This document shows, in pieces, positions 1 to 14,809 of a stretch of DNA of 26,172 nucleotides. A program made the translations under genes and the position numbers. The notes under the pieces were generated by a model. That model was not told where the DNA came from, ran no database searches, and saw only the letters and a list, made by a program, of their open reading frames with translations. Every line of letters begins with the position of its first letter. The first letter of the stretch is position 1. The DNA is from a virus: IMG/VR virus record IMGVR_UViG_3300037504_000492, positions 1 to 26,172 of that record, one strand, 5' to 3'.

Positions 1-122
1 TTTATTAAAGAAGTGTCGAAACTTGGCACTTGAAAATGAATATATGCATAATATTCATACAATTCACATTTTGCGGTTTGTAAAGACATTACAAACAATG
101 CTATTAAAGTTATTTTTTTCAT
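1..122 (-). CDS. Secreted protein, 5' part only (copy of the T9SS-type secreted protein at 10975-11751)
   Basis: Only the first 40 codons lie in the window; the gene runs off the left edge. It starts MKKITLIALF, a Lys-Lys N-terminus followed by a hydrophobic stretch typical of a Sec signal peptide. The predicted 40 residues equal those of the protein encoded at 10975-11751 except Ile4 for Leu4. The DNA is almost identical to 11630-11751, so the copy is recent or kept alike by recombination. The start follows the same leader used by four other genes here. By analogy the product would be exported to the periplasm and perhaps the cell surface, but its C-terminus cannot be seen, so it may differ from the complete copy. 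Confidence 0.85.
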   Translation of the reverse strand, partial: MKKITLIALFVMSLQTAKCELYEYYAYIHFQVPSFDTSLI

Positions 123-170: not shown

Positions 171-713
171 TTATAAGTTAAAATGTTCAATTTTTATAAC
201 ATTTCTTACTATATCTGCAGCTTGTTGCAGTTTTCCTTTTCTTGTAGCAGCAGCATAAGTAGCATAATAATCAGCAAAATAAACAGCCTCAGCAGCAACC
301 TTAGAAGTAGCCTTAGAAGCAGCCTCAGCAGCATAATAATTAGCAACATCAGGAGTAGTAGCAACATAAACAGCATCAGCAGCAACCTTAGCAGCAGCAT
401 CAGCATCAGCAGCAAATTCTTTTAATTCTTTTTTGCTTATTTTCCCTTCTCCGTAAGAAATAGCAGCTTCTACAGCCTTAATGCTTCTTTCATCTTTCAT
501 CAAATGCTTAACCGTTTCTGCACATTTCCCATTTACAAGTGTTAATAATTTTACATCATCAGGATTTGTTTTAGCGAAGAGCCACAGCAGCCAATCGCCT
601 CTCTTACACTCCTCATAAACCTCTTGCCATGATGACTTTGTCTCTGCCCATTTAATCGCTTTATCGCAAGCGTTTAGTGATTTTAATTTTTTTATAAATT
701 TTTCTTTGTCCAT
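171..713 (-). CDS. Ala-rich protein resembling Imm5-like putative immunity proteins
   Basis: A 180-aa protein. Its N-terminal half carries a pattern I associate with a family annotated as putative immunity protein (Imm5-like): an AC-x-A-x(3)-W start near residue 15, then a Trp/Cys-rich block with ECKRGDWLLWL at 35-45, then a conserved cysteine at 64 and a DER motif at 74-76. The C-terminal half (100-157) is Ala-rich with a duplicated ten-residue unit, KVAADAVYVA at 109-118 and KVAAEAVYFA at 138-147, and is probably helical. There is no signal peptide or membrane segment, so the product should be cytoplasmic. It starts right after the shared leader and follows the 819-1421 gene with a hairpin between them. 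The immunity role is a family-level guess from memory; no toxin gene is visible. Confidence 0.75.
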   Translation of the reverse strand: MDKEKFIKKLKSLNACDKAIKWAETKSSWQEVYEECKRGDWLLWLFAKTNPDDVKLLTLVNGKCAETVKHLMKDERSIKAVEAAISYGEGKISKKELKEFAADADAAAKVAADAVYVATTPDVANYYAAEAASKATSKVAAEAVYFADYYATYAAATRKGKLQQAADIVRNVIKIEHFNL

Positions 714-769: not shown

Positions 770-811
770 CTTGCGAAACCCCTACTCACCGTAGCTTTCG
801 GGGAACGCAAG
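770..811 (-). promoter_or_regulatory. 42-nt GC-rich hairpin, left copy
   Basis: On the minus strand CTTGCG (806-811) pairs with CGCAAG (770-775), and inside this CCCC (800-803) pairs with GGGG (779-782), leaving a 17-nt loop region. It differs from the hairpin at 11777-11818 at only two loop positions. It lies just after the stop at 819 and before the next gene's leader. No U-run follows on the minus strand, so it is not a classic terminator in the direction of transcription. A moderately T-rich stretch follows on the plus strand. It may be an attenuator, an mRNA-processing or stability element, or a terminator for plus-strand transcripts. Confidence 0.7.
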
Positions 812-818
812 AGTTTTG

Positions 819-1421
819 TTATTTGTAATAGTTATTTTGATCATCAACAAAGACTATATCGCCTTCATCGTCCTGGTAAGCACCTGTGATGCTATCAAAT
901 ATTTGTTTTATATCGTTTCTTAAATCGTTGTAAGATATGAATTTAACAATCTTGTCGCTTTCTTCGTCTTCATACACTGCAATTCGGACGTCTTCATCGA
1001 AAAAATCTTCAATTTCGATGATTAGATTATAGCAATTATCATTATATTCTCCAGATTCAGCCAGCTCTTTGATTTCTGTTAGATAATAATCAAACAAATC
1101 GTATACTTTATATTCTTTGTAAAGTTTTTTTTCTCGCTCTGTCAATTCGTCTACACTGTCATATCCTAACAAATCAGCGACCATATCCCATTCAACAGAC
1201 CAGGGTTCGACTCCTATTAGTTCTATAAATCCTGGTTTATGCGAGTTGTTATAAGACAAGTCGCCTGAATGTACCTTCCCGGATTTTTCGACATAGATAG
1301 GTATTCTCCACCATGACCACGGAAAGTTAAATGCTTTTTTGATTCCTTCTTCAAGTACTTCTCTTAATTGATCCTCATCAATTACGATTTTTTGTTGTTT
1401 TGTGATTTCTTGTGTTTTCAT
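819..1421 (-). CDS. Hypothetical acidic protein, cassette gene
   Basis: A 200-aa protein that I do not recognise. The start at 1421 (MKTQEITKQQ) is chosen because it follows the shared leader and lies downstream of the promoter at 1467-1498; a 25-residue longer reading would begin upstream of the promoter's expected transcription start. The protein is acidic, with Glu/Asp-rich stretches and an aromatic patch (FPWSWWRIPIYV, about residues 33-44). It has no signal peptide or membrane segment. It holds the position that the winged-helix-like gene (11844-12119) holds in the other cassette, but the two proteins are unrelated by eye. This fits a conserved expression cassette with exchangeable cargo. 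Confidence 0.8.
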   Translation of the reverse strand: MKTQEITKQQKIVIDEDQLREVLEEGIKKAFNFPWSWWRIPIYVEKSGKVHSGDLSYNNSHKPGFIELIGVEPWSVEWDMVADLLGYDSVDELTEREKKLYKEYKVYDLFDYYLTEIKELAESGEYNDNCYNLIIEIEDFFDEDVRIAVYEDEESDKIVKFISYNDLRNDIKQIFDSITGAYQDDEGDIVFVDDQNNYYK

Positions 1422-1442
1422 TTTTTTGCGTTTTTTAGGTTT
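1422..1442 (-). promoter_or_regulatory. Shared leader, copy 3
   Basis: An AACCTAAAAAACGCAAAAAA version of the leader directly abuts the ATG at 1421. It fixes the start codon of the 200-aa gene. Confidence 0.55.
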
Positions 1443-1466
1443 AAATAATATTAAATTAATACAATA

Positions 1467-1498
1467 CAAATATAATACTTTTTTATATAAAAACAAAA
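1467..1498 (-). promoter_or_regulatory. Bacteroidetes-type promoter, left copy
   Basis: On the minus strand TTTTG (1494-1498), 19 nt, then TATATTTG (1467-1474). This matches the Bacteroidetes primary-sigma consensus (TTTG, 19-21 nt, TAnnTTTG). Initiation would fall near 1460, giving a leader of about 40 nt before the ATG at 1421. It should drive the 200-aa gene and, by read-through of the hairpin, the immunity-like and secreted-protein genes. Confidence 0.8.
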
Positions 1499-1506
1499 TA
1501 TTTTTG

Positions 1507-1549
1507 CAATTATTTTTAAAAAAAATATAAAAAAATTTATAAATTATTG
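1507..1549. promoter_or_regulatory. AT-rich inverted repeat upstream of the promoter, left copy
   Basis: An imperfect dyad: CAATTATTTTTAAA (from 1507) mirrors TTTATAAATTATTG (to 1549) with two mismatches. It lies just upstream of the -33 element and is preserved in the other copy (12205-12247). It could be an operator or UP-like element, or an AT-rich terminator for the preceding gene; its weak pairing makes the terminator reading less likely. Confidence 0.35.
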
Positions 1550-1557
1550 ATTAATAG

Positions 1558-2115
1558 TTAAATAAGGTTTTTAAAAAAATCTTCCGGCAATTCTCTTTTA
1601 ATATTGTTTATATTGGTGTGTATCTTAAATGTTTTTTCATTCTCTTTACAAAGAATAATAACAAGATTATTTACATAATCTAAATGTAATACTTTTCCTT
1701 TATATTCTACCCCTTTGTCTCTACAAATAACATCAGTTCCTTTATAAAAGAAATATGTCTTATCCCAATTCCCTTTTGTTTTTAGTTGATAATCGTCCCT
1801 ATAGTCAAAATTAGGAATACCCCAACTTTGTAAAAATTTTTCATATATGTATATATTCTTTCGTTGTTCATTATTAAATATACTTGGAAAACTCTGTTTT
1901 AAAGAAATTGATTCAATCTTTTCTCTCTTTTTTTGACATATATCTTTAAATTTTTTTTTATCTTTTTCTCTTTTCCAAAGTTTATAACGTGTGTAATAAC
2001 TTAAATACTCAATCTGTAATCTTGTAAAAAGATCAGAAATAGTCAAATCCCTACTTTTTCTTAATTCCATTTTTAAATTGTCAAAACTTTCACCGAATCT
2101 TTTAAATAAAAACAT
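1558..2115 (-). CDS. Hypothetical protein with a C-terminal KOW/SH3-like segment, overlaps primase
   Basis: A 185-aa basic protein starting 14 nt inside the end of the primase gene, so it is probably translationally coupled to it. Residues about 20-95 are Lys/Arg/Glu-rich and probably helical. The C-terminal 60 residues (from about 122) read like a small beta barrel of KOW/Tudor type, with GTDVICRDKG, YKGKV and alternating hydrophobic strands ending in KTFKIH. I do not recognise the family. The position suggests a replication or gene-expression accessory. A second possible start is Met16 (2070). Its last codons lie inside repeat P. Confidence 0.7.
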   Translation of the reverse strand: MFLFKRFGESFDNLKMELRKSRDLTISDLFTRLQIEYLSYYTRYKLWKREKDKKKFKDICQKKREKIESISLKQSFPSIFNNEQRKNIYIYEKFLQSWGIPNFDYRDDYQLKTKGNWDKTYFFYKGTDVICRDKGVEYKGKVLHLDYVNNLVIILCKENEKTFKIHTNINNIKRELPEDFFKNLI

Positions 2116-7236: not shown

Positions 7237-7800
7237 TTAATTTATATTTGTATCTATTATTTTAATATTATTCTTATTACGTAAAACGTTTTCAATCATA
7301 CTAAACTGTTCATCTCTTTCTTCTTCATTGTAATATATGAAAGTTTCGTTACTATACAACGGGATATTTTTTGTTATATCTTCATCTACTTTGTTTATAA
7401 TAATACAATAAGATTGTTGTTGCTCTTTTTTATCCCATCTATCAAATTTACCAAAATTATACAAAAACTTTAAAATAAAATAGCTATTTTCTATTTTTAT
7501 ATATTCAGTCTCCTTTTCTGATATATTTTTATTAATACTTTTTTCATTTTCTTCATCCTCTCCCTTATTTTTATTAAAATTAGTATTCCACTCCAAAATA
7601 CTTTCTTCTATATCTTTATCTGCATAATATTTATAATTATCTAAAATAGCAACTAAATCATTAATTTTTAATTTTTTCAATGATTCTCTAATTTCTTTAA
7701 AAATATTAGCGTCTTCTTTAGATATAGGAGATATTCTATATTCTTTCTTTATTAAAGAATTATATATATCTACCGCTTTTTGTACGTGTTTTTTTAACAT
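7237..7800 (-). CDS. Hypothetical charged protein
   Basis: A 187-aa protein rich in Lys, Glu, Asn and Ile. The start at 7800 (MLKKHVQKAV) is chosen because it lies 2 nt after the stop of the membrane-protein gene; the frame is open for 36 further codons upstream, but that extension only shadows the end of that gene. Residues about 1-70 look helical. A low-complexity acidic and Asn/Lys-rich linker (about 72-95) follows, then a mixed alpha/beta C-terminal part with KFLYNFGKFDRW. No family recognised. Confidence 0.65.
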   Translation of the reverse strand: MLKKHVQKAVDIYNSLIKKEYRISPISKEDANIFKEIRESLKKLKINDLVAILDNYKYYADKDIEESILEWNTNFNKNKGEDEENEKSINKNISEKETEYIKIENSYFILKFLYNFGKFDRWDKKEQQQSYCIIINKVDEDITKNIPLYSNETFIYYNEEERDEQFSMIENVLRNKNNIKIIDTNIN

Positions 7801-7802
7801 TA

Positions 7803-8264
7803 TTAAAATAATTCTTTTAAGAATGAATTTATGTATATGAATACATATCCTGATAAATTTAACAAAATTATAAATACATAAAAACCAAATAACATTAATC
7901 CCCACCATTTAATAATTGCCCAATTATTAAATGATTCTAAAAACTTCTTCTTTACTCCCATAATTCTATCTATTATTATGTCATAAAATAAAGAACCTAA
8001 TAAGGCAACATAAACAAGATACATAATTTTATCATAAGTCACAAAAGGAAAATGTATCGGAACAAATAATAAATAAGCTAATAATATTCCAACATTAAAC
8101 CTCATCCAAAATCCATACCTATGATGCAATACAGAATATCTTTCAGATTCTTCTTGAGATGTATTTCTATATAAACCCCACATAATAAAATGCCCCTCTT
8201 TTAGTCCTACAAATATAAATAAAGTTGTTGTCAAAAAATAAAGTCCCAATAATTCTAAGTTCAT
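7803..8264 (-). CDS. Four-helix integral membrane protein
   Basis: A 153-aa protein with about four hydrophobic segments, near residues 4-21, 56-75, 80-97 and 118-146. A charged loop lies between the first two (RNTSQEESERYSVLHHRYG). It would sit in the host inner membrane. It is larger than most holins, has no charged holin tail, and no lysis gene adjoins it, so I do not call it a holin. The next gene starts 2 nt after its stop. A role in membrane-level exclusion is possible but unsupported. Confidence 0.7.
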   Translation of the reverse strand: MNLELLGLYFLTTTLFIFVGLKEGHFIMWGLYRNTSQEESERYSVLHHRYGFWMRFNVGILLAYLLFVPIHFPFVTYDKIMYLVYVALLGSLFYDIIIDRIMGVKKKFLESFNNWAIIKWWGLMLFGFYVFIILLNLSGYVFIYINSFLKELF

Positions 8265-8933: not shown

Positions 8934-9764
8934 TTAATCAGCTTTTGTGGGTTCATCCATAAAAGAAAAAAGCCCTCGCTCTTTTGCCTTTTCAAGGCAA
9001 TTGGGGTTAATATCGCAACCAATAAAACTTCTGTTTAAATTTTTACAAGCGTGTGCAGTTGTAAATGCTCCAGCGTAAAAATCAGCAACTAAATCACCTT
9101 CATGACTACTTGTTTTTATTATCCTCTCAATAAGTTTTACAGGTTTCTTAGTATCGTACTTATAGTTTTTACTTTCACTCTGTAATGAATTTAAAAACTT
9201 AATATCCTCCCATACATCTCTTACCCTAACATCTCTGTAATACCCAAGTTCATCTTGTTTTACATCCATAAATTTCTTTTCAAATCGCACTCTTTCAAAC
9301 TCATTATTAAAAGTAAATTCATTAGTCTTGGTATAAAACAAAATATTATCGTGCTGTTTAATGTATGTTTTACCTAAACCCTGTGAACGATAACCCCAAA
9401 TTATTTCATTTCTAAAATTATCATAACCAAAAACGTCATCCATTATACACCTAATCCAGTGGTTAATTCGCCAATCCATCTGTAAATAAATACTCCCTGT
9501 GTCTTTTAAAATACGGTACATTTCTTTAATTCTTGGTATATAATGTTTTTCTATTACTTCACGTTCAGGCTTTAAATCTTGGTAGTCTTTAAATTTTCTA
9601 CCAGTTCCGTAAAGTATATCGCAATAAATTAAATCAACCGTATTATCTTGCATTTCTGCCATTAATTCAAGGTTGTCGCAAATTCTCATATCTAAAAATT
9701 GCCTTCCCCTTTTTTCTTTTACTATCATTCGTTCATTTATTAAAGTTTGTACTAAATTGTCCAC
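8934..9764 (-). CDS. DNA methyltransferase (N4-cytosine/N6-adenine type, beta-class order)
   Basis: A protein of up to 276 aa that would methylate a base in phage or host DNA using S-adenosylmethionine. Motif order is beta class. Motif IV comes first: LIYCDILYGTG with DILY at 49-52 in place of the usual DPPY. A central target-recognition region follows, then a motif X-like KPVKLIERII at 207-216 and the AdoMet-binding motif I, DFYAGAFTTAHA, at 228-239. FIGCDINPN (248-255) ends the fold. The longest reading starts at GTG 9764; ATG at 9728 (codon 13) is an equally good start and leaves all motifs intact. No cognate restriction enzyme is adjacent, so it is an orphan enzyme, probably for protection against host restriction. 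Confidence 0.9.
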   Translation of the reverse strand: MDNLVQTLINERMIVKEKRGRQFLDMRICDNLELMAEMQDNTVDLIYCDILYGTGRKFKDYQDLKPEREVIEKHYIPRIKEMYRILKDTGSIYLQMDWRINHWIRCIMDDVFGYDNFRNEIIWGYRSQGLGKTYIKQHDNILFYTKTNEFTFNNEFERVRFEKKFMDVKQDELGYYRDVRVRDVWEDIKFLNSLQSESKNYKYDTKKPVKLIERIIKTSSHEGDLVADFYAGAFTTAHACKNLNRSFIGCDINPNCLEKAKERGLFSFMDEPTKAD

Positions 9765-10277: not shown

Positions 10278-10490
10278 TTAATTTAAATTTACAGAATCAC
10301 AAATCTCTACACACCCACGAATTATTGACATGTGTTGATCTTTATAATTATCTTGTAATTTAAAATTGTTACAATATTTATAAGAATTACAATCACACAA
10401 ATGACAATGTAAATTAAGCAAAGAAAAATTATTGCAAAATATTTCCATTTTTGAGGTCAATATTGACCCCTTTTTTAAATCTTTAGACAT
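10278..10490 (-). CDS. Small cysteine-rich protein
   Basis: A 70-aa protein with seven cysteines at residues 19, 29, 32, 34, 40, 60 and 64 and histidines at 28, 30 and 53, so it probably binds a metal ion. No signal peptide. Its start overlaps the end of the upstream 167-aa gene by 16 nt, and its stop is 2 nt from the HNH gene. No family recognised. A role together with the HNH enzyme is speculative. Confidence 0.6.
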   Translation of the reverse strand: MSKDLKKGSILTSKMEIFCNNFSLLNLHCHLCDCNSYKYCNNFKLQDNYKDQHMSIIRGCVEICDSVNLN

Positions 10491-10978
10491 ATATTTATAT
10501 ATTTACAATTGTTACATAATTCATTTACTTCAAAGATAAGCTCCCTACAATGCAAAAAACCCTTCTCTTCATTAAAAAACCTCTTCTTTTCTCTTCTTTC
10601 AAATTCCAAGCTACCATCTTTATTGTTTACAAGTCCAGGCAGTGGTTTTTTAATATTTAATTTATTTTCATATTGAGTATTAAAATATTTCCAGTTTTTA
10701 TTTTTATTATTCCATCTATCTAAAGCCTTCTTTCCGGTTATCCAATTTAATTGAACAACTCCCCTTCCAAACCTTGTTTTTTTATCTTTATAATACTCAA
10801 ATTGATAAATGATATAATCCCAAATAAAATCTTCATTAATACAATAGGATAATCTATTTATCCAATTTTCTACAAGTTTTACATTTTTACCTTCACATTG
10901 TATTGTATAATTCAACTTTCCGGTTGACTTTTGGTAAATTATATTGAAATATTCAATAAATGTTTCTATCAATATCAC
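10475..10978 (-). CDS. Hypothetical protein with a C-terminal Cys cluster
   Basis: A 167-aa protein. It starts at GTG (10978), which overlaps the TGA of the secreted-protein gene by 4 nt (GTGA), a translational-coupling layout. The middle is basic and aromatic (WNNKNKNWKYF). It ends with CNNCKYINIC, a C-x2-C-x5-C pattern that with C144 could bind zinc. No family recognised. Its coupling ties the secreted-protein cassette to the downstream block. Confidence 0.65.
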   Translation of the reverse strand: MILIETFIEYFNIIYQKSTGKLNYTIQCEGKNVKLVENWINRLSYCINEDFIWDYIIYQFEYYKDKKTRFGRGVVQLNWITGKKALDRWNNKNKNWKYFNTQYENKLNIKKPLPGLVNNKDGSLEFERREKKRFFNEEKGFLHCRELIFEVNELCNNCKYINICLKI

Positions 10979-11751
10979 TGTTTTATGTATTTATAATAAT
11001 ACCTTTTACCCTTGTAGGTTATAATACATATATTAACACCAAGAGGGTCTGAATGTATAAATATTCTATCATAATCTTTTAATGTATATATGTGTCTTCC
11101 AGATAAGCTGTATTTATCTATTCTTTCAACATTTACACCCATCATAACAAAATGTCCACTAACATATGGATTCAATTCATCATTAGCATTTACACTTTGT
11201 ATATAAGATTCAGAAGTGTCTGAATGTGTTGTGTCACTGTTAATAGTATCCCTTAAGCAAGTGTCTATTGTTTGTACTATATAATTATTAACAAATCTTT
11301 CGGCAATACAAGTATCTATAAATTGATAAACGGTATCTTTTACTATTACAGTGTCCTTTTCATAGGCAGCGTCTGTAATAGAGGATAGCTCAAAAATAAA
11401 ATCACAATCATACTGAGTTCCGTACATTACAACACTCACAACCCTTTTAGGAGACTGTAAATATTCAGTTTGCCCTTCATATCTGACAGATTTAACAGTA
11501 ACTTTTCTGTCTGCTGAATAATGAAGATAATTTATTTTCAATTTTGGTACAAATCCAGAAAACTGCTTAACGATAAAGTTAAACTGAATTGGTTTTTTAA
11601 AATAAATTGCACTTTGGGAAGAAAAATCTTTTATTAAAGAAGTGTCGAAACTTGGCACTTGAAAATGAATATATGCATAATATTCATACAATTCACATTT
11701 TGCGGTTTGTAAAGACATTACAAACAATGCTATTAAAGTTAATTTTTTCAT
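10975..11751 (-). CDS. Secreted protein with signal peptide and T9SS-like C-terminal sorting domain
   Basis: A 258-aa protein. The start is ATG 11751 (MKKLTLIALFVMSLQTAKC), placed after the shared leader; the frame is open 22 codons further upstream, but that would read through the hairpin. Residues 1-18 form a Sec signal peptide. Residues 20-125 look like a beta-rich domain. Residues 132-182 are an Asp/Thr/Val-rich linker with repeated DTV and DT units, typical of Bacteroidetes surface-protein stalks. Residues 205-258 resemble a type A type IX secretion sorting domain: a YSLSGRHIY strand, then PLGVNICIITYKGKR and a Lys-containing end (KYIKQ), matching the LxGR, GVYxxxI and terminal-Lys pattern. 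The product would be exported through the outer membrane in a T9SS host. That family match is from pattern memory. Confidence 0.85.
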   Translation of the reverse strand: MKKLTLIALFVMSLQTAKCELYEYYAYIHFQVPSFDTSLIKDFSSQSAIYFKKPIQFNFIVKQFSGFVPKLKINYLHYSADRKVTVKSVRYEGQTEYLQSPKRVVSVVMYGTQYDCDFIFELSSITDAAYEKDTVIVKDTVYQFIDTCIAERFVNNYIVQTIDTCLRDTINSDTTHSDTSESYIQSVNANDELNPYVSGHFVMMGVNVERIDKYSLSGRHIYTLKDYDRIFIHSDPLGVNICIITYKGKRYYYKYIKQ

Positions 11752-11779
11752 AATCTTGTGTTTTTGGTTAATTAATCTT
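11630..11779. repeat. Direct repeat S, right copy
   Basis: The counterpart of 1-150 with about two or three mismatches. It covers codons 1-40 of the secreted-protein gene and its leader, and ends where the hairpin begins. Confidence 0.95.
11752..11773 (-). promoter_or_regulatory. Shared A-rich translation leader, copy 4
   Basis: AACCAAAAACACAAGATT abuts the ATG at 11751, identical to the leader at 123-144. Confidence 0.6.
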
Positions 11780-11818
11780 GCGAAACCCCTACTCGCCGGA
11801 GCTTTCGGGGAACGCAAG
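11777..11818 (-). promoter_or_regulatory. 42-nt GC-rich hairpin, right copy
   Basis: CTTGCG (11813-11818, minus strand) pairs with CGCAAG (11777-11782), with inner CCCC (11807-11810) and GGGG (11786-11789) pairing and a small CTC/GAG stem in the loop. It differs from 770-811 at two positions. It lies between the stop at 11844 and the secreted-protein leader. The stem can extend outward by AATC/GATT with one bulge. No U-run follows on the minus strand. Confidence 0.7.
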
Positions 11819-11843: not shown

Positions 11844-12119
11844 TTATGCCAGACCATTGTTTTTAGCCCAAGCGTACCCTTCTGTTGTTAAAGCGCAAGT
11901 TTCATCTCCTTCACTTACATCACAACTACAAAATCCTTTCTTAACAAGACTACCCAATGCTCCTGCAAGTTGTTTGGTTTCATTGGTAACTGAGAATGCC
12001 CAAACCGACCAATTAACCATTTCCTCACCGCTTGCATCCATATACTCACTATCAATGATGTTCTGAATTACCTGTCTTTCAAGGTCTGTTACAAATTTTG
12101 TGTCTTTTAAGGTTTTCAT
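11844..12119 (-). CDS. Small probable winged-helix protein, cassette gene
   Basis: A 91-aa protein. The ATG at 12119 follows the shared leader and the promoter at 12165-12196. Residues about 46-90 read like a winged helix: a recognition-helix-like TKQLAGALGSLVKKGF, a two-stranded turn with acidic residues, then ALTTEGYAWAKNN, as in MarR-type folds where LT-x-x-G closes the wing. It could be a transcriptional regulator acting on the two identical promoters, or a small DNA-binding antirepressor. No signal peptide. It holds the slot that the unrelated 200-aa gene holds in the left cassette. Confidence 0.75.
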   Translation of the reverse strand: MKTLKDTKFVTDLERQVIQNIIDSEYMDASGEEMVNWSVWAFSVTNETKQLAGALGSLVKKGFCSCDVSEGDETCALTTEGYAWAKNNGLA

Positions 12120-12139
12120 AATTTTGTGTTTTTAGGTTT
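12120..12139 (-). promoter_or_regulatory. Shared leader, copy 5
   Basis: AACCTAAAAACACAAAATT abuts the ATG at 12119. It fixes the start of the winged-helix gene. Confidence 0.55.
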
Positions 12140-12164
12140 AAATAATATTAAATTAAATACAATA

Positions 12165-12196
12165 CAAATATAATACTTTTTTATATAAAAACAAAA
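12165..12196 (-). promoter_or_regulatory. Bacteroidetes-type promoter, right copy
   Basis: TTTTG (12192-12196), 19 nt, TATATTTG (12165-12172), identical in all key positions to the promoter at 1467-1498. Initiation is expected near 12158. It gives the accessory genes, and perhaps the downstream block, expression independent of the tail operon. Confidence 0.8.
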
Positions 12197-12204
12197 TATT
12201 TTTA

Positions 12205-12247
12205 CAATTATTTTTAAAAAAAATATAAAAAAGTTTATAAATTATTG
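12205..12247. promoter_or_regulatory. AT-rich inverted repeat upstream of the promoter, right copy
   Basis: The same imperfect dyad as at 1507-1549, between the end of the tail operon and the promoter. It could be an operator for a regulator such as the winged-helix protein, or a weak terminator of the tail transcript. Confidence 0.35.
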
Positions 12248-12274
12248 ATTGATAGTTAAATAAGGGTAAAAAAA

Positions 12275-12829
12275 TTAAGTCCAGGATATTACAATATCTA
12301 TACTATCCTGCTTGTCAAGTTGTTTTTGTGAATATATATCTCCGTCTTTTTCGACTAAATTATCATAATCATCATCTATAACGTCTTTTAATAATGTTCT
12401 TTTTATAAATAAACCTAAACTTGACCCGTTTGTTATATCTCCTAAATTAACTTTATTGCTTTCTCCGTCTGCTTCATAAAATGTTACTGAATAAGGTGCA
12501 GAATCATAATTATTCAACCTTTCAATGTAATACTCTCCGTCTGCATCTTGTGTAGGAGTTACTGCACCTATTTCTAATTTAGTATAACAATTTTCAGGAT
12601 AACTGAAATATAATTCTACATCACTTACATCACTCCCAGTGTCATTATTCAGAAATAAAGCTATGTAATGAGTTTTATCGTTCTGATAAGTATATGTAGA
12701 TATATCTCCAAAAAGATTATTCAATTGACTGTTTGGTACTCTTGTAGAAGATTTATATCCTCCTACACTATTTACTGTCTTTTTTTGCTCTTTATCTGTA
12801 CCTGCGCTTGTTGTATAATATAATTTCAT
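12275..12829 (-). CDS. Probable virion protein, last gene of the tail operon
   Basis: A 184-aa protein with no signal peptide or membrane segment. A GGYKSSTRVPNSQLNNLFGDI segment sits near the N-terminus (about residues 23-43). The rest is beta-rich with many Asp, Tyr and Ser, like small tail or fibre-associated proteins. It follows the tail fibre by 24 nt. I have the impression that similar proteins follow tail genes in other Bacteroidetes phages but cannot name a family. Confidence 0.7.
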   Translation of the reverse strand: MKLYYTTSAGTDKEQKKTVNSVGGYKSSTRVPNSQLNNLFGDISTYTYQNDKTHYIALFLNNDTGSDVSDVELYFSYPENCYTKLEIGAVTPTQDADGEYYIERLNNYDSAPYSVTFYEADGESNKVNLGDITNGSSLGLFIKRTLLKDVIDDDYDNLVEKDGDIYSQKQLDKQDSIDIVISWT

Positions 12830-12853: not shown

Positions 12854-14809
12854 TCACTTAACTGCTATACGTGCGTTCTCTATTGTTGCAGAACTGCCGT
12901 TTACAAGTTTAGCTCTTATTTCTATTTTGTCCGAAGCCTCTAAATCCCTAACATGGATTTGACTTGCTATGTTACGATAATCAATTAAGACCCTATTTCC
13001 GTTAGTAGTTTTAGCTGACGTTCTTGAGTAGATTAATTGTCCCCAGTCTATGCTTTCTATCGCCGCACCACTCCTTATTATACGAAATTTTATGGATGCC
13101 TCAACAAAATTTGTTGTTGAGTTAGTATCATTTAATATCAGTCTTATTGCTGCATTACCATATATTAGAGCGTTAGGCATGTCTCGATCAACAGTTAAAT
13201 CCAATATTGTCTCCTCAGATGTTGATAGACTTCCGTAATCTGCAACCTCTGCAAACAAACCTCTTTTGTGTAGTTTTGCTGGGGTTGTGATTAAAGTATC
13301 ATCCGCCCCTTCATCCACATCTGACTGAGGAGCAATTTTACCACCTCCAATACTTGATTCTGTAGCTTGTTTAACAGGGTAAACCTGACGCCAACTCCCC
13401 CAAGAAATACCGTTATGTTGACGAATTAATATTTCAGGTTCCGTATCTGATGAAATTACTTGATAAGTTTGATAAAGAACAACAGAACTATCCTCTCTTT
13501 TATCAACAATCAAAAAACCCGGCTTATTACTCGGATTATTTGAAGCCGAATCTGGATTTGTTACATATACCTTCGTAGGGGATGTAAGGTTGTCAAAATC
13601 AGAAAAATCAATGTTCCCATTCAAATTAATATATGAAGGAGTGGATATACATATCCAATTACCCCATGAAGTTGTTCCATTAACATATTTCCTGGTATAT
13701 ATAATCAGTTCATCTCCCGAAGAAATTGATCCAATATATTTTTGATATATATCGCCAGATGAATTATCAACATATACCTCTATATAACCATCTTCATTTA
13801 AAGGTATGTTTAAATAATCTGAATTTACAATATAATTTCCCGGAGTAGTTAAATTATCTGCATCTGTTATGGTTGTAGTTCTAAACTTGTTGAGTCCTGA
13901 CAAAAAACTTTTAAAATTATCAGAAGTTAAATTCCCAGCATCCGTATCTGCTTTATCGTCAAGGTTTAAGATAATCTCCCCAAAGTCTAATTTCCAATAT
14001 CCATTATCACTATCTCTTTTATCTTGTACAGTAACTATACCAGTACCATCATCCCACCAAACTCTTGCAAGCCAAAAATAATCTTCATTTTTCGTTCCCG
14101 AAGGAGATGTTGGAGCTTCATCTTCATCTATCTCAGCGACCATTTCATATTCTGCCCAATCATAAATATACAAACCAGATTTTTGATCTGCATCAAGTGT
14201 CGTTCCTAATGTATAAGCTCCTACAACTATATACTTCATATTGTTCTCAGCAGTAAAACTACCTGAAAGTACCATATTTTCATCATCACTAACGCTTACA
14301 ACCTCATATACTCCACTATTATTAGTCGAGCTTGTTACAGTTCCATTAGAAGATTCGCTCATTATACGAATTTTAGTAGGTTGTTTATGTATTTGTCCTC
14401 TTAATAATGATTTAAAATTTGTACTTGTTCCTGAAACACTTCCGTCCGCAGATATATCAATAGTTCCTTCTTCAAGCCTGTACTCTCGATAAGATAACTT
14501 TAACCAATACCACTGGTCTTTAGCTGGAACAGGAAAATTATCAAATACTTTACCATACATTAGTCTCATTTGAGAATCTATTGCATAACTTTCATAATTC
14601 ATCTTCACTGTTCCTACATTGGTTCCTGCTTCTATTAAAAAGTCATTACCTGAAAGAGAAGGGTTTGCTATAATTCCATATTCCTCAGTACTGTTCTCAA
14701 ATAAGAACATAGGAACACTATTTAAGAAGAAGTTTTGAAGTTTATTAACCTCTTCTGATTCAAGAAAAATATTCTTTTGTATATTTAATTTTCCTGTTCT
14801 TTCTGCCAT
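12854..14809 (-). CDS. Tail fibre / receptor-binding protein with two pyocin-knob-like domains
   Basis: A 651-aa protein at the end of the baseplate genes. Residues 1-110 are the likely baseplate-attachment part, and 115-265 a beta-rich region with a TDKx-like DKRDSDNGYW end. Two repeated units follow, about 315-387 and 404-477. Each opens with a DNLT-x-PG/T motif and ends in a WGxW motif (SWGNW, SWGSW), the pattern of pyocin-knob domains. Residues 481-515 (QATESSIGGGKIAP and then ITTPAKL) resemble the short linker repeat of phage tail fibres. The last 130 residues are a beta-rich tip. It probably trimerises and contacts the host surface; no chaperone gene is recognisable next to it. Confidence 0.85.
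   Translation of the reverse strand: MAERTGKLNIQKNIFLESEEVNKLQNFFLNSVPMFLFENSTEEYGIIANPSLSGNDFLIEAGTNVGTVKMNYESYAIDSQMRLMYGKVFDNFPVPAKDQWYWLKLSYREYRLEEGTIDISADGSVSGTSTNFKSLLRGQIHKQPTKIRIMSESSNGTVTSSTNNSGVYEVVSVSDDENMVLSGSFTAENNMKYIVVGAYTLGTTLDADQKSGLYIYDWAEYEMVAEIDEDEAPTSPSGTKNEDYFWLARVWWDDGTGIVTVQDKRDSDNGYWKLDFGEIILNLDDKADTDAGNLTSDNFKSFLSGLNKFRTTTITDADNLTTPGNYIVNSDYLNIPLNEDGYIEVYVDNSSGDIYQKYIGSISSGDELIIYTRKYVNGTTSWGNWICISTPSYINLNGNIDFSDFDNLTSPTKVYVTNPDSASNNPSNKPGFLIVDKREDSSVVLYQTYQVISSDTEPEILIRQHNGISWGSWRQVYPVKQATESSIGGGKIAPQSDVDEGADDTLITTPAKLHKRGLFAEVADYGSLSTSEETILDLTVDRDMPNALIYGNAAIRLILNDTNSTTNFVEASIKFRIIRSGAAIESIDWGQLIYSRTSAKTTNGNRVLIDYRNIASQIHVRDLEASDKIEIRAKLVNGSSATIENARIAVK

Follow-up and report, generated by a model that had tools for sequence, protein, structure and literature searches.

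Whether a bacteriophage can supply its host with a surface protein of its own, addressed to the T9SS by a C-terminal sorting domain (CTD), is the question raised by a single gene of the virus record IMGVR_UViG_3300037504_000492 from IMG/VR. T9SS is a main route for surface coating in many Bacteroidota. The analysis covered positions 1 to 26,172 of the record, and this whole stretch of 26,172 nucleotides is called the window below. The initial annotation described a phage-encoded protein, and its viral setting is borne out by the record, in which a large terminase gene and a tail-type neighbourhood surround the gene of interest (the target gene). The reading favoured here, held to be probable though well short of certain, is that the target gene encodes a host-exported cargo protein of a Bacteroidota phage, which would use the T9SS and act at the host surface.

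The target gene and the predicted parts of its product are as follows.

10975-11751, minus strand: target gene, 258 aa plus TGA stop (from the sequence and the list of open reading frames)
11695-11751, minus strand: Sec-type signal peptide, residues 1-19 (MKKLTLIALFVMSLQTAKC; from sequence and hydropathy)
11362-11694, minus strand: passenger region, about residues 20-130 (about 110 residues), with no detectable relatives
11182-11361, minus strand: Thr/Asp/Val-rich linker, about residues 131-190 (from sequence)
10978-11175, minus strand: putative divergent type A-like T9SS CTD, about residues 193-258, with NP, LSGR, GVN and K..IKQ (from profile scores and spacing)

The 258-aa open reading frame originally described is present, and is to be read on the minus strand, the plus-strand frame over the same interval having many stops. 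Translation starts at an ATG at 11751 and runs to a last codon at 10978, and the TGA at 10975-10977 adjoins the GTG of the conserved gene that comes next (10475-10978). A 280-aa version from a TTG start was dropped because the extension passes through the hairpin listed further below. The N-terminus combines a positively charged n-region (MKK) with a hydrophobic core, where Kyte-Doolittle values averaged over 8 residues are 2.8-3.0 (residues 4-14), in support of the Sec signal peptide first proposed, and the Thr/Asp/Val linker was likewise found where the annotation had seen one. A lipoprotein reading was rejected, since TAKC, with Lys at -1 relative to the Cys, is not a standard lipobox.

The landmarks of the candidate CTD (66 residues) are NP at 194-195, LSGR at 216-219, GVNI at 238-241, K254 and K257. 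Their roles were taken from published work on the motifs of such domains, in which the Lys residues of motif E are reported to be necessary for efficient secretion (PMC10202324); the assignment of residues of this protein to motif letters A (NP), B (LxGR), D (GxY) and E (K...K) is our own. By that assignment NP, LSGR and the two Lys residues are all present, and motif D reads GVN, not GVY, so that the conserved GVY strand named as a mark of the domain has its Tyr replaced by Asn. The layout first described, of LSGR, GVNI and a terminal Lys, holds for its first two elements only: the protein ends in Gln, preceded by its last Lys, and this KQ ending also occurs in several genuine CTDs. Spacing closely follows that of a genuine CTD used for comparison (L036), with 22 residues from NP to GR in both, 18 versus 19 from GR to GV, and 21 from GV to the C-terminus in both. 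Sequence identity to genuine type A CTDs is 15-26%.

A search with Por_Secre_tail and TIGR04183 had been proposed as the check on the sorting domain, and the absence of a match was the first outcome listed as counting against it. Taken literally, that is the outcome obtained: TIGR04183, Pfam (including Por_Secre_tail) and NCBIfam gave no relevant match to the target protein up to E=10. To look for a divergent member, a custom CTD profile was considered alongside, made from 30 genuine CTDs collected from Bacteroidota plasmid records via TIGR04183, minus one near-duplicate, i.e. 29 sequences. The local HMMER score of the target protein against this profile was 5.6 bits, with profile positions 17-72 aligned over residues 206-258 and ending exactly at the C-terminus. 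It ranked 7 of 1316, and about 4 per 1000 shuffles equalled it, which is near chance. Because the local score alone was not discriminating, end-to-end scoring anchored at the C-terminus (glocal) was adopted. Under glocal scoring the target protein reached +9.6 bits with the 29-CTD profile, a value attained by none of 2000 shuffles of its sequence (mean -27, SD 6, maximum 2.2). The best score among the other open reading frames of the same and related phages (455 + 1384, about 1,840) was 2.6, and that among 112 E. coli control frames was -3.0. Profiles built from random halves of the CTDs placed the target protein at Z = 5.0-6.4. Genuine CTDs in control records scored 22-73 bits (lowest 22.3), including those of four phage-labelled records (L114-L116 and L118), and the 29 profile members gave leave-one-out scores of 28.8 to 83.8. 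By these scores, the C-terminus resembles type A CTDs far beyond chance, since +9.6 stands against -27 for shuffles and at most 2.6 for other phage frames, yet the resemblance is weaker than that of any confirmed CTD scored. Of the T9SS-like sorting domain claimed at the outset, the end-to-end match to type A CTDs is supported; the curated profiles do not detect it, and GVY reads GVN. As to the phage-labelled controls, L114, L115 and L116 (MT836839, MT835643 and MT839268) are human fecal scaffolds deposited as phage that encode CTD proteins; the frames seen on them appear bacterial, and the phage label is possibly wrong.

Homology searches with the target protein against Pfam, NCBIfam, PHROGs and PADLOC returned nothing. 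No relatives, either of the whole protein or of the CTD alone, were found in viral contigs, genome contigs, phages, plasmids or the records of the phage's relatives, and no recognisable CTD was found in those relatives. A PDB sequence search with the CTD gave chance matches only. Single-sequence AlphaFold models of the target protein and its CTD had pLDDT values of 34 and 53, too low to bear on the seven-stranded Ig-like sandwich expected of type A CTDs, and Foldseek of these low-confidence models against the PDB gave no confident match.

The large terminase is 35% identical to those of Bacteroides phages DAC16 and relatives, 50% to that of a human fecal phage scaffold and 71% to that of an IMG/VR contig; its alignment against genome contigs gave no relative. 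In relatives of the phage the large terminase and a DnaB-type helicase are enlarged, apparently by inteins (L003, 10128-12227 and 12243-14768; probably also L019, 7901-10915). Upstream of each of the two gene cassettes listed below lies a predicted promoter of the form TTG-N19-TATATTTG, which we take to be the Bacteroidota promoter consensus. A host in the Bacteroidota is likely, because the promoters are of Bacteroidota type and the phage is related to Bacteroides phages. These nearest cultured relatives infect B. thetaiotaomicron, which to our knowledge has no T9SS, and the host may therefore belong to another lineage.

The relatedness to phages of Bacteroides bears on the strongest alternative. 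The target gene could encode a phage protein of superinfection-exclusion type that is exported to the periplasm or associates with the outer membrane and never passes through the T9SS; its end would then be no more than a generic Ig-like/beta domain, or else a CTD that has decayed. The signal peptide is clear, the CTD falls under all curated cut-offs as well as all genuine CTDs, and the key Tyr has become Asn, all of which would suit such a protein. It is nevertheless considered unlikely, though to be taken seriously. The match to CTDs extends specifically to motif order, spacing and anchoring at the C-terminus, the motif E lysines K254 and K257 are kept, and among the phage, E. coli and Hymenobacter controls no exported or beta-rich frame came close to the score of the target protein, genuine CTDs aside.

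The surroundings of the gene give a second line of information. On one side of it lie tail-type genes (12275-12829 and 12854-14809) and on the other the conserved gene at 10475-10978. In four related records (L001, L007, L015 and L017) the homologues of 12275-12829 and 10475-10978 adjoin directly and the site is empty, and in a fifth (L008) the same site holds a gene for an HNH/AP2-type (homing) endonuclease, named by eye. The site, being empty or otherwise occupied in relatives, is therefore a variable insertion point. Judged by gene order, the target gene is an accessory (cargo) gene, part of a lineage-specific insertion that separates conserved phage genes; measured against the cargo genes of Cryophage, it is likewise a variable accessory gene in a phage genome, flanked by phage core genes. 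Elsewhere in the window, the N6/N4 DNA methyltransferase gene at 8934-9764 (minus strand) has a counterpart in only one examined relative (L094), at another place, and is therefore also an accessory gene.

The insertion forms a cassette, transcribed in the order promoter region, 91-aa gene, hairpin, leader and target gene.

12096-12274, minus strand: right promoter region, with Bacteroidota-type -33/-7 elements (TTG-N19-TATATTTG at 12194 to about 12165)
11844-12119, minus strand: first gene of the cassette, 91 aa, with a weak match to phrog_25342 (function unannotated)
11777-11818, minus strand: 42-nt hairpin between the first gene and the target gene (from the repeat and fold prediction)
11749-11770, minus strand: repeated 5' leader TAACCAAAAACACAAGATTATG before the target gene (from sequence)

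A second cassette is found at the left end of the window, in the order promoter region, 201-aa gene, hairpin, 180-aa gene, leader and, last, the 5' end of a further copy of the target gene.

1398-1576, minus strand: left promoter region, the other copy of 12096-12274, with Bacteroidota-type -33/-7 elements
822-1424, minus strand: first gene of the left cassette, 201 aa (from the list of open reading frames)
770-811, minus strand: second hairpin copy, 40/42 identical to 11777-11818
171-713, minus strand: second gene of the left cassette, a 180-aa Ala-rich repeat protein, weakly matching phrog_18326 and the Imm5_like immunity proteins (below cut-off)
1-122, minus strand: start of the second copy of the target gene, truncated at the left contig end (from sequence identity to the target gene)

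The two promoter regions are a duplication of about 160 bp, 84% identical without gaps over 179 nt, and the leader, AACC(T)AAAAACRCAARATTATG, recurs on the minus strand at 120, 711, 11749 and 12117. The hairpin copies are separated by 11 kb, and each follows the first gene of its cassette. The RNA reads CUUGCG UU CCCC GAAA GC-UNCG-GY GAGUA GGGG UUU CGCAAG; the two differences between the copies preserve the predicted structure. Its GAAA/GAGUA portion resembles a loop E motif. No match to the hairpin was found in Rfam, and viral contigs held no true second home for it; an 18-nt match in one of them (L121) was dismissed, as it falls within a coding region and the remainder of the element is missing there. 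The first gene of the right cassette had no relatives when searched. The Ala-repeat protein of the left cassette shows weak similarity also to a protein of a Methanomicrobiales virus (H68).

Of the second copy of the target gene 40 residues can be read, and 39 of them are identical to those of the first. Nucleotide identity between the two is exact over about 111 nt, and the contig ends inside that stretch. Assemblies break at repeats, so the left contig end was probably caused by this one. By sequence, the target gene is probably present in two copies.

The same gene order has to be weighed in a further alternative, by which the product is a virion-associated protein, for example of the tail tip or a decoration protein, and its signal-like N-terminus is coincidental. 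A place between tail-type genes and the conserved gene at 10475-10978 is where such a protein might be sought. The site is, however, a variable insertion that relatives dispense with, the gene stands in a separate promoter cassette, and its second copy adjoins non-structural genes, which together make a virion protein very improbable. That the CTD resemblance arose by chance in a Tyr/Lys/Ile-rich C-terminus, as the closeness of the local score to the best shuffles and the original picking of the CTD by eye might suggest, is likewise very improbable, the end-to-end score being reached by 0 of 2000 shuffles and 0 of about 1,840 frames, with Z of 5-6.4 on resampling.

Export through the T9SS thus remains the favoured reading for the target protein. 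The protein would be carried by Sec to the periplasm, where the host T9SS, if the host has one, would then recognise the CTD. The CTD would be removed, and the passenger of about 110 residues may be released or stay attached to the cell surface. The most likely benefit to the phage would be an altered surface of the infected cell, for example a receptor masked or blocked against competing phages. Surface change or superinfection exclusion, also proposed for Cryophage (PMC7468147), would be the most economical gain for the phage. A fuller version is offered only tentatively, and taken whole is doubtful: the phage may carry a small protein family, exported to the surface and encoded in duplicated promoter-hairpin cassettes, expressed by the host RNA polymerase and bearing a divergent T9SS signal, that would remodel the surface and exclude rival phages.

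Phage-encoded T9SS cargo has been reported before. Three such genes were reported in Cryophage, with a surface or superinfection role proposed for their products (PMC7468147), and proteins with T9SS sorting domains were reported in the crAss-BACON cluster 2 phages (PMC6949934). Cryophage, by its published description, shares with the present case variable accessory phage genes, type A sorting domains and a phage of Bacteroidetes; its passengers are identifiable (endoglucanase, GH39, PA14) and its sorting domains recognised, whereas here the passenger has no match and the CTD is divergent (PMC7468147). The crAss-BACON cluster 2 phages, which are gut phages, also have phage frames with sorting domains, near the head section; they differ in belonging to another phage group and in having BACON repeats in the same or adjacent frames (PMC6949934). 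Among the records scored, a 634-kb uncultured huge phage (LR745206, L118) has a frame at 7611-8210 that is likewise short (199 aa) and has a signal peptide and a CTD, in its case a canonical one of 57.6 bits. With the type A sorting domain family itself (TIGR04183 / PF18962) the target protein shares the signal peptide, the C-terminal site, the layout of NP, LSGR, G-V-x and K-x-x-K, and the spacing; it differs in being missed by the curated profiles, in a score under all confirmed members and in GVN for GVY. As it lies under the TIGR04183 cut-off, it was not placed formally in that family. The target gene is probably a divergent further case of phage-encoded T9SS cargo, and not the first.

If phages routinely add T9SS cargo of their own, they could rewrite the surface of the infected cell. 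The sorting signal described here is missed by standard profiles, which suggests that phage T9SS cargo may be under-counted; in this phage such a gene has apparently been duplicated, in promoter-hairpin cassettes.
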